A model generated the notes under the pieces. That model saw only the letters and a program-made list of their open reading frames with translations, had not been told where the DNA came from and made no database searches. From an uncultured Bacteroidales bacterium (GTDB lineage Bacteria; Bacteroidota; Bacteroidia; Bacteroidales; UBA932): a stretch of 64,000 nucleotides of DNA. The DNA lies in NCBI GenBank assembly GCA_944326235.1, contig CALVDH010000002.1, positions 62,001 to 126,000 on the forward strand. The letters are read 5' to 3'. Positions 5,501 through 53,128 of the stretch are shown here, in pieces. Every line of letters starts with the position of its first letter. Position 1 is the first letter of the stretch. The position numbers and the translations under genes were made by a program.

Positions 5501-6319
5501 GGCCGTCAGCCCCTGGAATTTGCCTTCCCCAAGCACTTCGACGGACACTACACCGCTCCCGCCGAACGCCGCATCAAGGCCGCCATCATCCGTGAGACCG
5601 GCTCCAACGGCGACCGCGAGATGGCATGGGCCCTGTACATGGCCGGATTTGCCGTCAAGGACGTGCACGTGACCGACCTCGTATCGGGACGCGAGACCCT
5701 CGAGGACGTACAGATGATAGTCTTCGTGGGCGGTTTCTCCAACGCCGACACCCTCGGCTCGGCCAAGGGATGGGCCGGTGCCCTGCTCTACAACGAGAAG
5801 GCCCGCACCGCCATCGAGCGCTTCTACGCCCGCAAGGATACCCTCAGCCTCGGAGTCTGCAACGGCTGCCAGCTGATGGCCGAGATGGGCCTGATCACTC
5901 CCGAGCACAAGGAACTCTCGCCCAAGATGAAGCACAACGCCTCGCACAAATACGAATCCGCATTCGTAGGCGTACACATCGAGAACTCGCCTTCCATCCT
6001 CCTGTCCTCCCTGCAGGGCTCCAGGCTCGGCATCTGGGTGGCTCACGGAGAGGGCCGTTTCTCCTTCCCCAGACCTCTGGAGGAATACAACATCGCCCTG
6101 AGATACAACTACGACGCCTATCCCGGCAACCCCAACGGATCCCCCGCCGCAGTGGCCGGAGTATGCTCCCCTGACGGCCGCCACCTGGCCATGATGCCCC
6201 ACCCCGAGCGCTGCCTAAGACCCTGGAACTGGGCGCATTACCCTGACAGAAAGGGTGATGAGGTTACCCCCTGGCTCGAAATGTTCATAAACGGCAGAAT
6301 ATGGCTCGAAAGACTATAA
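2564..6319 (+). CDS. purL: Phosphoribosylformylglycinamidine synthase, single-chain
   Basis: Catalyses the fourth step of de novo purine synthesis: FGAR plus glutamine and ATP gives FGAM. At 1251 residues this is the large fused type, with synthetase and glutaminase in one chain, as is usual in Bacteroidota and Proteobacteria. An N-terminal PurS-like region is followed by the linker motif [16 protein letters not shown]. The first ATP-binding half contains [27 protein letters not shown] (shown here only to fix the motif region near residue 255), and the second PurM-like half contains [11 protein letters not shown]. The C-terminal class I amidotransferase has the nucleophile Cys in GVCNGCQLM near residue 1097 and the His/Glu pair in PHPERC near 1211. 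The last 19 nt overlap the downstream PhoH-like gene. Confidence 0.97.
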
Positions 6320-7695
6320 GACAGATGGAGAACCGGTTCCGCGGGCTGGACAGCCGCCCTCCCCGCCCCCCGAAACTCTTCGTGCTGGACACCAATGTGA
6401 TCCTCCACGACAGCAGGTGCATCTTCAACTTCCAGGACAATGACATCTACATCCCGGTGAGTGTCATCGAGGAGCTGGACAAGTTCAAGAAGGGGGACGA
6501 CAACCTCGGGTTCAACGCCAGGGCCTTCGTACGCGCCCTGGACAAAATATCGGACAACACCCTCTTCGACCGGGGCATCAGCCTCGGCAAGGACCGCGGC
6601 CACATCAAGATAGAGATGGGCCACGGCTATACAGGCCAGATACGCGACTCGCTCATCGACGACATCCCCGACCACCGTATCATCGCCACTGCCATCTGGC
6701 TCAGGGACAACAACCCCGACCGCAAGGTAATCCTTGTGACCAAGGACCTGAACATGAGGCTCAAGGCAAAGGCTCTCGGCCTCATGGCCCAGGACTATCT
6801 CTCCGACAAGGTGCAGGAGGAACGCGTCGTCAAGACCGAGAAGGAGGTGCTCACGGTCCGCAATATGAAGGATGATTTCATCCGGAAGATAAATGAATCA
6901 CAGGAAGGAGTCCCCTTCGCCCAGGTCGGCATCCGCCGCAGACCGGCGCCCAACCAGTACTACAAGATATACGACAGTTCCAAAAGCCTTACCCTGGCCC
7001 GCTACGACGACCGGGACAAGACCATCGTCAGAGTCAAGCCGCAGACTGCCTACGGTATCTCGCCCCGCAACGACGAGCAGACCCTGGCCATGGACGCTGT
7101 CATGAATCCGGACATCAAGCTGATAGCCCTTACAGGCAGGGCCGGTACCGGCAAGACCCTCATAGCCCTGGCCGGAGCCCTTTCGCAGTCCGGCAACTAC
7201 GAGCAGATACTCCTCTCCCGCCCCGTCATCCCGCTCAAGAACCAGGAACTCGGCTTCCTGCCCGGCTCGGTGAACGACAAGATAGGCCCTTACATGCTGC
7301 CACTGTTCGACAACCTGGCCGTCATCAAGAGCTGCTTCTCGTCCACCAGCAAGGAAGTCGTCAAGATAGAGGACATGCTACGGAGGGAGAAACTGATAAT
7401 CAACCCTCTGGCCTATATCCGCGGCCGCAGCCTCGGCAACGTCTTCTTCATCGTGGACGAGTCCCAGAACCTCACCCCGCACGAGGTCAAGACCATCATC
7501 ACCCGCGCAGGAGAGGGCACCAAGATAGTCTTTACCGGAGACATCTACCAGATAGACCAGCCCTATCTGGACTTCTACTCCAACGGCCTCACGCACCTTT
7601 GCGACAAGTTCTTCGGCCAGAGCGTCTTCGCCCACATCAATATGGTGCGGGGCGAGCGCAGCCAGCTCTCCGAGCTTGCCGGCAAATTGCTGTAA
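6301..7695 (+). CDS. PIN domain plus PhoH-like ATPase
   Basis: A 464-residue cytosolic protein. The N-terminal PIN nuclease domain (about residues 25-155) starts with [13 protein letters not shown], in which Asp30 is the first acidic metal ligand; further acidic residues lie at EELDKFKK and DDIPDHRI. The C-terminal PhoH ATPase domain has Walker A GRAGTGKT near residue 279 and Walker [11 protein letters not shown] near 380. This PIN-PhoH arrangement is known from the PhoH2/YlaK-type proteins, RNA helicase/ribonucleases thought to act in RNA turnover. Translation is probably coupled to purL, since the ATG at 6301 lies inside the purL end; an ATG eight codons later is an alternative start. The stop codon is the first three bases of the inverted repeat at 7693. 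Confidence 0.92.
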
Positions 7696-7817
7696 TTCTT
7701 GTCAGAACGGGTCGACTGCTGCGTTGTCTTCGACTCTTGGCTCGGTCATTTACGCCCAGTAAACTCCCTCGCCAGGAGCCTCGATGCCTTGCATTCGGCC
7801 CGTTCTGACAAGAATTA
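7693..7817. repeat. 125-bp palindromic element at the end of the PhoH-like gene
   Basis: A perfect 19-bp inverted repeat has arms at 7693-7711 and 7799-7817 (core TTCTTGTCAGAACGGG). They enclose 87 nt with weaker internal pairing: GGCTC at 7739-7743 with GAGCC at 7776-7780, and TTTAC at 7749-7753 with GTAAA at 7759-7763. The left arm begins exactly at the phoH stop codon. There is no U-tract, so it is not a simple intrinsic terminator. It contains no ORF of note. It could be a REP-like element or an mRNA 3'-end stabiliser. Confidence 0.8.
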
Positions 7818-7832
7818 TGATACACATTGATA

Positions 7833-8002
7833 AGTACTCAGGCTGTTATAAGGCTTGCAGAAGCATGCCACCCTCGGCCTGTTAGAGGGAGGGACCCGCC
7901 ATGAGTATCACCGAGTTACGAAGTAACGAGCTGATACTCACGGTGGGAGGGAAAAGCGCCATAGGCGCGTCCTTCTGCAAGCCTTATAACAGCCTGAGTA
8001 CT
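7833..8002. repeat. 170-bp cloverleaf element closed by a perfect 31-bp inverted repeat
   Basis: The arms at 7833-7863 and 7972-8002 are exact reverse complements over 31 bp (outer sequence AGTACTCAGGCTG). Inside are three hairpins. CCCTC at 7871-7875 pairs with GAGGG at 7885-7889. CCCGCC at 7895-7900 plus TGAGTATCA at 7902-7910 pairs with TGATACTCA at 7932-7940 plus GGTGGG at 7942-7947, and is topped by GTTAC-GAA-GTAAC. GCGCC at 7956-7960 pairs with GGCGC at 7964-7968. One G-T pair in the central stem favours an RNA-level structure. No flanking target-site duplication is evident. It lies upstream of the ppdK -7 box, so it is not in the ppdK leader. It could be a structured RNA, a MITE or a large REP-type element. 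Confidence 0.85.
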
Positions 8003-8125: not shown

Positions 8126-10846
8126 ATGTCAAACAAAAGAGTTTATTTCTTTGGAGGAAAAGAGGCCGAAGGAAACGGTTCTATGAGAAACCTCTTGGGC
8201 GGTAAAGGCGCGAACCTCGCCGAAATGTGCACGCTCGGAATGCCCGTACCCGCGGGATTCACCATCACCACCGAATGCTGCACGGAGTATTACAATCTGG
8301 GATGCAAGTATCCCGCAGAACTCGAAAAGGAAGTCAATGACGCTCTCTCACGCGCAGAAAGCATGATGGGCCGCAAGTTCGGGGACAAGGACAACCCTCT
8401 CCTCGTATCCTGCCGCTCCGGCGCACGCTCATCCATGCCCGGCATGATGGAGACCGTTCTCAACATAGGTCTTTGCTCCGCGACCATACCCGGTATGATC
8501 GCCAAGACCGGCAATCCCCGCTTCGTCTACGACGCATACCGCCGTCTGATCATGATGTACTCGGACGTGGTAATGGAGAAGGCCGAGGGCATCGAGCCCG
8601 CAGAGGGCCAGGGTATCAGGGTCCAGCTCGACAGGATGCTGGGCGACCTGAAAGCGAAGAAAGGCTACAAGAGCGACACAGACCTGACCGAGGAAGACCT
8701 CAAACAGCTCTGCACAGACTTTAAGGTACGTGTAAGGCAGGTACTCGGCAAGGAGTTCCCTGACAATGCATACGAGCAGCTCTGGGGCGGTATCGGAGCC
8801 GTGTTCAAATCCTGGAACGGCAAGCGTGCCATCGCCTACCGCCGCATCGAGGGCATACCCGATGACTGGGGAACAGCCGTGAACGTACAGGCCATGGTAT
8901 TCGGCAACATGGGAGACAACTCCGCTACAGGCGTGGCCTTCTCCCGTAACCCCGCAACAGGTGAGAACAAGTTCTACGGAGAGTGGCTCATCAACGCTCA
9001 GGGCGAGGATGTCGTAGCCGGTATCCGCACCCCCAACCCCCTGAACGAGGCCACCAAGAACGAGCACAACCGCCATCTGGCCTCCCTTGAGACAGCCATG
9101 CCCGAGGTATACAAGGAACTGGACGAGATACAGAATCATCTCGAGAACCACTTCCACGACATGCAGGACATCGAGTTCACCATCCAGGACGGCAAGCTCT
9201 GGATGCTCCAGTGCCGCGTCGGTAAGAGGACAGGTCTGGCAGCCCTCAATATGGCCATGGACATGCTCCATGAAGGCCTTATCGATGAGAAGACAGCCGT
9301 CATGAGAGTGGCCCCCGCCCAGCTTGACGAGCTCCTCCACCCTATCCTGAACCCCGCTGCTGAGAAGAAGGCCACCGTCATCGCACAGGGTCTGCCCGCA
9401 GGTCCCGGCGGCTCTGTCGGCAAGATCGTCTTCACAGCCGAGGATGCCGTAGCCGCTGCTGAGCGCAAGGAGAAAGTGATTCTCGTCCGTGAGGAGACCA
9501 ATCCCGAGGACGTGGAAGGCATGCGTGCCGCAGACGGTCTGCTCACAGCCCGCGGAGGTATGACCTCGCATGCGGCTCTGGTAGCCCGCGGATGGGGCAA
9601 GTGCTGCATCGTAGGCTGCGACGCCCTGCATATTGACCTTGAGGCCAAGACACTCACCATCAACGGCAAGACCTACCACGAAGGAGATGTATTCTCGCTC
9701 AACGGCTCCAAGGGCTTCGTTTACGACGTCGCAGTAGAGACCATGGACGCATCGGAGAATCCCCGTTTCGTAGAATACATGACCCTCGTAGACAAATACC
9801 GCCGGCTCGGTGTGCGCACCAACGCCGACACTCCCGAGGACGCAGCCCGCGCCCTGTCCTTCGGAGCCGAGGGTATCGGCCTCTTCAGGATAGAGCACAT
9901 GTTCTACGGAGCCAACTCCGAGGAGCCTCTGTCCAAGCTGCGCAAGATGATTCTCTCCAAGACTGAGGAAGAGAGAAAGGCCGCACTGGACGAGCTCGAG
10001 CCTTACATCAAGGAGGCCGTGAAAGCCACCATGAAGGTGATGAACGGCAAGCCCGTGACCTTCCGTCTGCTCGATCCTCCTCTCCATGAATTCGTACCCC
10101 AGACACCCGAGAAAGAAGCAGAGCTGGCGAAAGAACTGGGAGTATCCATTGACGATATCCAGAAACGCGGAGAAAGCCTGCACGAGGTCAACCCCATGAT
10201 GGGCCACCGCGGAGTACGTCTCGGTATCACCTATCCCGAAATCAGCGAGACCCAGTTCCGCGCCATCTTCGAGGCTACTGCCGAACTCCTCAAGGAAGGC
10301 CTCGATCCCAAGCCTGAAATCATGATTCCCGTAACCATCATCGTCCGCGAGCTGGATTTCGAGAAGAAGATCTGCGACCGCGTACACGACGAGGTGGAGA
10401 AAGCTACCGGCATGACCATCAATTACCTCTACGGCACCATGATCGAGATTCCGAGAGCTGCCCTGCTGGCTAACTTCATGGCTAAGACGGCACAGTTCTT
10501 CTCCTTCGGAACCAACGACCTGACCCAGATGACATTCGGTTTCTCCCGCGACGACATCGGAGCCTTCATGGGCGACTATCTGGAGAACAAGCTCCTCGAT
10601 GCCGACCCGTTCCAGACCATAGACGAGGAATCTGTCGGCAAACTTCTGGAAATAGGCGTTCATGGCGGCCGCAGCACCAACCCCAACCTCAAGGTAGGTA
10701 TCTGCGGTGAGCACGGCGGAGACCCCGCATCGGTGGAGTTCTGCCACAAGATCGGCATGAACTACGTATCCTGCTCGCCTTTCAGAGTGCCCATCGCACG
10801 TCTGGCTGCTGCGCAGGCTGCCATCAAGAGCGGAATGAACAGATAA
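8126..10846 (+). CDS. ppdK: Pyruvate, phosphate dikinase
   Basis: Interconverts pyruvate, ATP and phosphate with PEP, AMP and pyrophosphate. In anaerobic Bacteroidota it works near the PEP-pyruvate node. The 906-residue length is the normal full-length form. An N-terminal ATP-grasp region begins with FFGGKEAEGNGSMRNLLGGKGANLAEM. The central swivelling domain carries the phosphohistidine in GGMTSHAALVARGWG (His482). The C-terminal PEP-binding TIM barrel contains GLFRIEHMF, NPMMGHRGVRLG, FSFGTNDLTQMTFGFSRDD and the catalytic Cys in GICGEHGGD. It stands alone, with a terminator just after it at 10868. Confidence 0.98.
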   Translation: MSNKRVYFFGGKEAEGNGSMRNLLGGKGANLAEMCTLGMPVPAGFTITTECCTEYYNLGCKYPAELEKEVNDALSRAESMMGRKFGDKDNPLLVSCRSGARSSMPGMMETVLNIGLCSATIPGMIAKTGNPRFVYDAYRRLIMMYSDVVMEKAEGIEPAEGQGIRVQLDRMLGDLKAKKGYKSDTDLTEEDLKQLCTDFKVRVRQVLGKEFPDNAYEQLWGGIGAVFKSWNGKRAIAYRRIEGIPDDWGTAVNVQAMVFGNMGDNSATGVAFSRNPATGENKFYGEWLINAQGEDVVAGIRTPNPLNEATKNEHNRHLASLETAMPEVYKELDEIQNHLENHFHDMQDIEFTIQDGKLWMLQCRVGKRTGLAALNMAMDMLHEGLIDEKTAVMRVAPAQLDELLHPILNPAAEKKATVIAQGLPAGPGGSVGKIVFTAEDAVAAAERKEKVILVREETNPEDVEGMRAADGLLTARGGMTSHAALVARGWGKCCIVGCDALHIDLEAKTLTINGKTYHEGDVFSLNGSKGFVYDVAVETMDASENPRFVEYMTLVDKYRRLGVRTNADTPEDAARALSFGAEGIGLFRIEHMFYGANSEEPLSKLRKMILSKTEEERKAALDELEPYIKEAVKATMKVMNGKPVTFRLLDPPLHEFVPQTPEKEAELAKELGVSIDDIQKRGESLHEVNPMMGHRGVRLGITYPEISETQFRAIFEATAELLKEGLDPKPEIMIPVTIIVRELDFEKKICDRVHDEVEKATGMTINYLYGTMIEIPRAALLANFMAKTAQFFSFGTNDLTQMTFGFSRDDIGAFMGDYLENKLLDADPFQTIDEESVGKLLEIGVHGGRSTNPNLKVGICGEHGGDPASVEFCHKIGMNYVSCSPFRVPIARLAAAQAAIKSGMNR

Positions 10847-42675: not shown

Positions 42676-43075
42676 GCAGAGCAGTCTGTAATTTAACTTT
42701 TCAGCCTACATTCACATTTCCAGCACGTTACCCCCAATCACCTCACTACAGACACCACCAATTTTCCGACAGTCTGTAGGAGAGGAGATTCAGTATGATT
42801 CTTGTTTTCAGAGTATTCCGCGGAAGGACGGAAAACAGATACAGGGGGTAAAAGGCGGAAAAGAGTGTCTGCGCCCCTCAGTCTGTAAGAGAGAGAATCC
42901 GGTACTGCTCTTGTTTTCAGTGTGTTTTCAGGATATATAGAAAACAGACACACCTATATCAGTGCCAGTCTGTAGAGCACCCGACTCACACATCCCTCTC
43001 AAGACACGATGGTTAGTACGGATAGCTGATTACAGACTGAATAGAAAAATTTCATAATTTTGCACCCACTCACTT
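42676..43075. repeat. Gene-free gap with repeated CAGTCTGTA units
   Basis: Four direct copies of CAGTCTGTA (42682, 42770, 42879 and 42966) and one inverted copy (43031-43039) occur in 400 bp. The copies at 42770 and 42879 start degenerate repeats about 109 bp apart; both continue through CTTGTTTTCAG. No ORF looks real. The last part holds the -7 box of the next gene at 43055. Confidence 0.7.
43055..43062 (+). promoter_or_regulatory. -7 box for the LuxR-like regulator gene
   Basis: TAATTTTG matches TAnnTTTG, 13 nt before the ATG at 43076. The inverted CAGTCTGTA copy ends 15 nt upstream of it. Confidence 0.55.
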
Positions 43076-51167: not shown

Positions 51168-51318
51168 TTGCCACAACGGCACCGTTTTGCGTAATTCTCT
51201 GCCGTTGCGGTAATGTCTTTTCCGCACAACCGCCGTCACAGGCGCTCTGGACGGCATCGACCCGCCGCCTCCTTGCCACAACGGCAGCAAATCACGCTAA
51301 ACACTGCCATTGCGGCAA
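51168..51318. repeat. Pair of oppositely oriented 46-bp hairpins
   Basis: Hairpin 1 has arms TTGCCACAACGGCA (51168-51181) and TGCCGTTGCGGTAA (51200-51213). Hairpin 2 has arms TTGCCACAACGGCA (51273-51286) and TGCCATTGCGGCAA (51305-51318). Both loops are 18 nt. The reverse complement of the second loop resembles the first (both carry a TTT(A/T)GCGT(A/G)ATT core), so the hairpins are inverted copies of one unit, 59 bp apart. The pair lies in a gap between two divergent promoters. This resembles a BIME-like pair of REP elements. Confidence 0.8.
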
Positions 51319-52740: not shown

Positions 52741-52779
52741 GCCAGCCAACTCTCCCGCTGTCCCATCTTCCCTCTTTCC

Positions 52780-53067
52780 CACCTTCCGAAGGTGAGACGA
52801 TTCTCGGGGTTTTCTGCACACCTTCCGAAGGTGGGATTGAGCAACGGTACCGCTACAGCGCGTACAATGCCGTTCCCAGACTTTCTAGACATCTCCCACC
52901 TTCCGAAGGTGAGTTGTTTCTCGGGGTTTTCTGCTCACCTTCTGAAGGTGGGATTCAGCTACGACACCGCTACAGCGCGTATAATGCCGTTTCCAGACTT
53001 TCCAGACATCTTCCACCTTCCGAAGGTGAGACGTTTCACAGGGTTTTATGCACACCTTCCGAAGGTG
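52780..53067. repeat. 117-bp tandem repeat with six 15-bp palindromes
   Basis: CACCTTCCGAAGGTG (7-bp arms about a central C) starts at 52780, 52819, 52897, 52936, 53014 and 53053; the fourth has T for the central C. Spacing alternates 39 and 78 bp, so the repeat period is 117 bp and all distances are multiples of 39. The stretches between are also repeated (for example ACCGCTACAGCGCGTA twice). It lies between two genes, and the remaining 60 bp on either side hold nothing obvious. Reading frames through it exist only because the period is a multiple of three. Confidence 0.9.
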
Positions 53068-53128
53068 AGACTATTCTCAGGCCTTTCCGATTCCCACAAA
53101 CAACCTTTTACACATTTGCCCAAGAGCG

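Follow-up and report, generated by a model that had tools for sequence, protein, structure and literature searches.

The element at positions 7833–8002 of the window (the whole 64,000-nucleotide stretch of uncultured Bacteroidales DNA analyzed here) belongs to a dispersed non-coding palindromic repeat family, which is scattered through gut Bacteroidales, is apparently undescribed, and is referred to here as family A. Its copies share a conserved core between arms that are unlike from copy to copy yet complementary within each copy, and, judging from the sequences, these arms are most likely kept matched by replication copying one arm onto the other. We assign a probability of about 0.7 to this account as a whole, that is, to a dispersed non-coding palindromic family with a conserved core and with arms homogenized by template switching. 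No earlier description of family A was found in the literature (open-access papers).

Structure of the Window Element

The window copy, A1, lies on the forward strand, with its left arm (7833–7863) and right arm (7972–8002) being reverse complements of each other without a mismatch in 31 bp, as an earlier, sequence-only reading of this stretch had claimed. The outer 28 nt of the left arm are copy-specific, and its inner AAG is shared with other copies. The RNA fold of the element has an energy of −108.6 kcal/mol, compared to −53.1 ± 4.3 kcal/mol for 200 dinucleotide shuffles (z = −12.8), and bears out the three inner hairpins described in that reading. Hairpin 1 (7868–7893, CCACCCTC-loop-GAGGGAGGG) has a closing dinucleotide pair that covaries across the family, with R opposite A being kept. 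Hairpin 2 (7895–7947, CCCGCC...GGTGGG) is present in its long form and contains the G-T wobble reported earlier, which falls at a family-wide invariant T. Hairpin 3 (7956–7968, GCGCC-ATA-GGCGC) is missing from the subtype comprising A7–A11.

Reading the element in six frames gave only short stretches between stops, with no coding sequence, and none of the Rfam 15 covariance models matched it at the gathering score or at E ≤ 10. There is no visible repeated target sequence bracketing 7833–8002, in agreement with the lack of a target-site duplication noted before. No T-run directly follows either arm on reading the sequence, and A1 is thus not a standard intrinsic terminator, in which a T-run comes after a G+C-rich stem. 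The upstream neighbor (6301–7695, forward strand) is, by sequence inspection, a PhoH/PIN-type ATPase gene, with relatives in every genus genome searched, and the downstream neighbor (8126–10846, forward strand), named in the same way, is a pyruvate phosphate dikinase-like gene; the neighbors of A1 are thus co-directional rather than convergent.

A Dispersed Family with a Conserved Core

Family A is defined by the 114-nt core of A1, and has about 12 copies in the window's genome. Using the element as a query against that genome recovered four more full-length loci and one shortened locus, with matches that covered the core but not the outer arms; the core is present there at 6 full-type loci, in copies about 91–95% identical to that of the window, and a motif search adds a shorter subtype. 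The core was found in most genomes of the genus, the motif in 6 of 393 genomes of the order, in several other families (with zero matches for a reversed-pattern control), and the core again in at least 118 GTDB genome stretches, which among the matches listed come almost entirely from uncultured gut Bacteroidales. The earlier reading had held that a single copy with neither covariation nor a transcript would argue for a chance or degenerate palindrome, and multiple mobile copies against an RNA gene, and it is multiple copies that are observed, both in the element's own genome and across Bacteroidales. A chance or decaying palindrome, for which the only argument is that no function is known, is refuted by the more than 150 related copies, found with controls, and by the z-score of −12.8, such that its probability is negligible.

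The core consensus consists of hairpin 1 (GCCRCCC-NN-GGC...NN-GGGAGGGRCCC), hairpin 2, then TGGGAGGG, and often hairpin 3, with strong conservation of the junction sequence. Hairpins 1 and 2 vary in a paired fashion. Among 136 cores, the closing pair of hairpin 1 is TC/GA in 73, GT/AC in 41 and GC/GC in 17, while the invariant T of hairpin 2 stands opposite G in 70 and opposite A in 66; the inner stems of hairpin 2 contain 399 Watson–Crick pairs and 1 G-U pair. In other copies, the long form of hairpin 2 is replaced by short stems (e.g., CGCGAAGCG), and at locus A3 genomes G000 and G016 have the long form, G003 and G007 a short one. We also observed GGGAGGGGCCC-hairpin-TGGGAGGG several times in Azospirillum (L265, L320, L322 and L252), where the first hairpin differs and there are no long arms. 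These repeats share the GGGAGGG..TGGGAGGG half and are a possible distant relative of the family A core; they were left out of our interpretation of the family.

Copy-Specific Arms and Probable Template Switching

The upstream flank of each of 157 family A copies, a set that contains some orthologous copies of one locus, was aligned with the reverse complement of its downstream flank. Complementary arms flank the core in 146 of the 157, with a median score of 44 compared to 13.9 ± 3.5 when partners are exchanged between copies, whereas arm positions 8–32 are only 31% identical between copies, so that arm pairs are particular to each copy. The inner arm sequence is partly common to copies (CTCTGAA, GGAA...), and the consensus that remains near the core indicates arms that are in part inherited, with divergence increasing away from the core. 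The arm pairs comprise 3946 Watson–Crick (93%), 80 G-U (2%), 32 A-C and 180 other pairs; the excess of G-U over A-C among the mismatches has a p-value of 6.6e-6, a statistic which ignores kinship among copies.

Comparison of orthologous loci, recovered through their flanking sequence, shows how the arms change. Between the A1 orthologues of G000 (GGCTTGCAG) and G009 (GATTTGTAG) there are three changes, each matched in the opposite arm, and at A5 a multi-base block with an indel differs in both arms between G000 and G007. Mismatched intermediates also occur: A10 in G003 has GGC-GCAAAATG in one arm and GGCATGAAAATG in the other, with G009 carrying the second form in both, and A2 in G000 combines a G007-like arm with a G009-like arm, where the arms of G009 are homogeneous and those of G007 nearly so. 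The core itself lies in opposite orientation between species at A2 and A5, and, judged from hit strands alone, also at A3. Covariance of the arms, proposed earlier as a check, is found in that both arms change together at orthologous loci, and these changes include blocks and an indel, which are not stepwise. At A6, three species, including a more distant one, have the same arm pair, so perfect arms can be old.

Template switching between inverted repeats has been reported to homogenize arms and to invert the spacer (PMC8604942), and to both create and mend stems (PMC8794818). We infer template switching here because arm homogenization together with core flips fits this published signature. 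Once a core is present at a site, its flanks would form a quasi-palindrome, one arm of which would be copied onto the other by template switching during replication; in this way, the arm sequences would drift without losing their perfect match, the arms may grow into flanking DNA, and the core would sometimes be inverted between them. The likeness to template switching at quasi-palindromes thus covers both arm homogenization and spacer inversion, but the literature on the process concerns scattered repeats and RNA genes, whereas family A consists of dispersed repeats whose spacer is conserved. We know of no description of template switching in a family of that kind.

Of the three origins put forward earlier for the perfect arms (a recent mobile element, recent gene conversion, or selection for a structured RNA), a gene-conversion-like reading is hence the best supported, given that the arms of copies at orthologous loci are homogenized and that cores flip between them. 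With homogenized arms and flips, perfect arms demonstrate neither recent insertion nor, on their own, selection for RNA structure, which is a warning against taking perfect inverted repeats by themselves as evidence of the former, or perfect covarying stems by themselves as evidence of the latter. Family A also provides a natural experiment on bacterial template switching, with dozens of palindromes around one known core, with intermediates and with flips, which would let its rates, strand bias and stem-length limits be measured.

Gain, Loss and Tests for Mobility

Sites that are filled in some species are core-less in others. The core-less site of the family B element of the window (see below) in G009 holds one arm (TAATTCTTGCCAGAACGG|CCGGAATTATG), as do A4 in G016, B7 in G003 and G012, and A8 in G016 (the right arm); the core-less sites of A6 in G002 and of A7 and A11 in G016 hold no arm, and half-deleted copies are found at A11 in G002 and B3 in G003. 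As A6 is filled in the more distant G010, its copy was probably lost from G002, and some other core-less sites could likewise be deletions rather than empty sites. Since the core-less sites hold one arm or none, no insertion process is shown by empty sites: the comparison with relatives suggested earlier does yield core-less sites, but not a clean, polarized insertion. Copies are gained and lost at the 3′ ends of genes, with convergent genes being preferred, and most of these gains and losses are unpolarized. We consider it unlikely that the arms are pre-existing full target palindromes, as the full palindrome is absent from core-less sites.

The earlier idea of a recent mobile element consequently survives as regards a dispersing repeat, which is multi-copy with sites that are filled or core-less, while recency does not follow from perfect arms, which can be old, as A6 indicates. 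A MITE with long terminal repeats does not describe the family, as the arms match within a copy but differ in every copy, and are thus not family terminal repeats; moreover, no target-site duplication is visible, either on comparing filled and core-less A6 sites or around 7833–8002. In a search for an autonomous form, 99 of 101 5′ half-motifs were closed by a 3′ half within 46 nt, and no ORF-bearing autonomous form was seen. The absence of a transposase stated earlier extends to the family, in that none is linked to its copies. No gene family is enriched around copies in other species, and a DUF559 mobilizer was rejected, the DUF559 gene being present in 0 of 19 genomes.

Two ways in which the family might nevertheless move have to be weighed. 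A REP-like element mobilized by a host RAYT/Y1 (HUH) transposase seems to us quite improbable. Y1_Tnp matches of RAYT-like size, for which the earlier reading had proposed a test, do occur in 15 of 19 genus genomes, one of them about 2.7 kb from copy A8, but none of the Y1 genes examined is flanked by family A cores, and the inverted repeats that flank these genes, where present, belong to families other than A. In addition, G004 (99% complete) has 6 family A copies and no Y1_Tnp match, no neighboring gene family is enriched near copies in other species, and the aligned cores lack the conserved GTAG or CGTC foot that would tag a 20–40 nt REP stem-loop. Alternatively, the core could be inserted by an enzyme, with insertion copying the target flank as a second arm and so producing a site-specific perfect pair. 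The core-less relatives that have one outer arm but not its partner (the family B site in G009, A4 in G016, B7 in G003 and G012, and A8 in G016) are in favor of such a self-palindromizing mobile element, but the partly shared inner arm sequence indicates partly inherited arms, A6, A7 and A11 have core-less sites without any arm, and A4 and others are equally explained by deletion at short repeats. We therefore regard this origin as unlikely, and an element making its own arms on insertion as weakly supported. A more elaborate version, in which the structure of the family A core causes the target flank to be copied by fold-back during insertion and the cell then employs the resulting palindrome as a bidirectional transcript end, is more doubtful still.

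Other inverted-repeat elements, 164–187 nt in length, bracket Y1/RAYT-like genes of about 300–320 aa in L197 (1169–1355 and 2580–2766), L200 (850–1023 and 2170–2333) and L201 (704–890 and 2166–2342), and these genes with their flanking repeats are possibly TIRtron-like units. A repeat of about 100 nt (GCTTATAACGAAATTGAGAAGG...GGTATGACTGGAAGC), with many copies per genome, lies near a Y1 gene in the left flank of A8 (L081/L198; contig C3 of G000, at about 14.7 kb).

Genomic Placement and a Possible RNA Role

Family A copies are always non-coding and are located at the 3′ ends of genes, in many cases convergent ones, and thus mark such ends in common gut bacteria. Convergent neighbors flank 12 of the 17 family A and B copies that could be scored in the window's genome, compared to 13% of the window's adjacent gene pairs being convergent (p about 1e-7), based on gene calls that are crude and in some cases doubtful. 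The arms of A4, A6 and A7 are no more than 8 nt away from the stop codon on either side. Such positions may be safe sites, or copies there may serve as a two-sided transcript end; they suggest a hairpin that is tolerated, or employed, as a barrier at which transcripts arriving from either direction end.

The placement also bears on the third origin listed above, that of a structured RNA, in which the element would be a 3′-UTR or bidirectional 3′-end hairpin in transcripts, its pairing kept by selection through successive compensatory changes. We regard this as possible, albeit with less than even odds. In addition to the gene 3′ ends, it is consistent with the strongly conserved junction, with the covariation of hairpin 1 (73, 41 and 17 of 136 cores for its three closing pairs), with the hairpin 2 T, which stays T opposite G in half of the copies and is otherwise opposite A, and with the 80 G-U versus 32 A-C arm mismatches. 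However, the arm pairs are 93% Watson–Crick with just 2% G-U, the inner stems of hairpin 2 have a single G-U pair, block and indel changes in both arms and core flips are not stepwise compensation, there is no Rfam match, and the stem is not followed by a T-run. The G-U excess and the retained T point to a strand-specific structure, and hence to some RNA or single-strand role, although strand-biased C-to-T mutation can also produce the G-U/A-C asymmetry. Homogenization by template switching thus remains our preferred explanation for the matched arms, while the junction conservation, hairpin covariation and G·U bias leave room for a role at the transcript level.

Family B and Comparison with Known Repeats

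Directly upstream of A1 is an element of similar design (7693–7817, forward strand), which starts at the phoH-like gene's stop codon and has 19-bp perfect arms (7693–7711 and 7799–7817) around a core at about 7715–7796. This element belongs to an ERIC-like family, family B, copies of which in Bacteroidales (the window copy, L018, L023, L024 and L059–L076) often stand between a stop codon, which they directly follow, and an intrinsic terminator. Searching E. coli with the window element gave no match; a published ERIC core, the primers having been checked in PMC3696847, was used to find ERIC in E. coli, and family B was then aligned to that ERIC. A consensus-like family B copy scored 43 against the ERIC between ybhI and ybhJ (shuffles 18.7 ± 3.3, maximum 34), and carries the central CAGTCAYTTAC...GTAARCTCCT motif and the outer TGCTGCGT, while the window's own copy scored only 26. 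The arms are not part of a conserved unit, as they differ in B7, L023, L024 and L068. Such copy-specific arms in several family B copies, including L024 from another genus, make this arm behavior common to two unrelated cores.

Family A resembles ERIC/IRU, an intergenic palindrome of about 127 nt, in lying near gene 3′ ends, being non-coding and having no linked transposase. There is, however, no sequence relation that we could find, ERIC is a single hairpin and family A a cloverleaf, and the arms of family A and of several family B copies differ from ERIC in being copy-specific. REP/BIME elements are dispersed short palindromes with a transposase in trans and complementary stem changes (PMC3733652). 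Family A shares the dispersed palindromes and complementary stem changes of REP/BIME and their RAYTs (GTAG/CGTC), but is longer, has a three-hairpin core and no GTAG foot, and no RAYT flanked by family A was found. The streptococcal BOX repeat is, like family A, non-coding and modular, with an internal module that may be absent. The ends form stems in both, but those of BOX are of conserved sequence.

The window contains three further repeats: short repeats that occur as diverged pairs and are palindromic at their ends, at 51168–51318 (TTGCCACAACGGCA..TGCCGTTGCGGTAA) and 42770–42952 (CAGTCTGTA..ACAGA), and a 117-nt unit in three tandem copies (90% and 65% identity) at 52777–53127.
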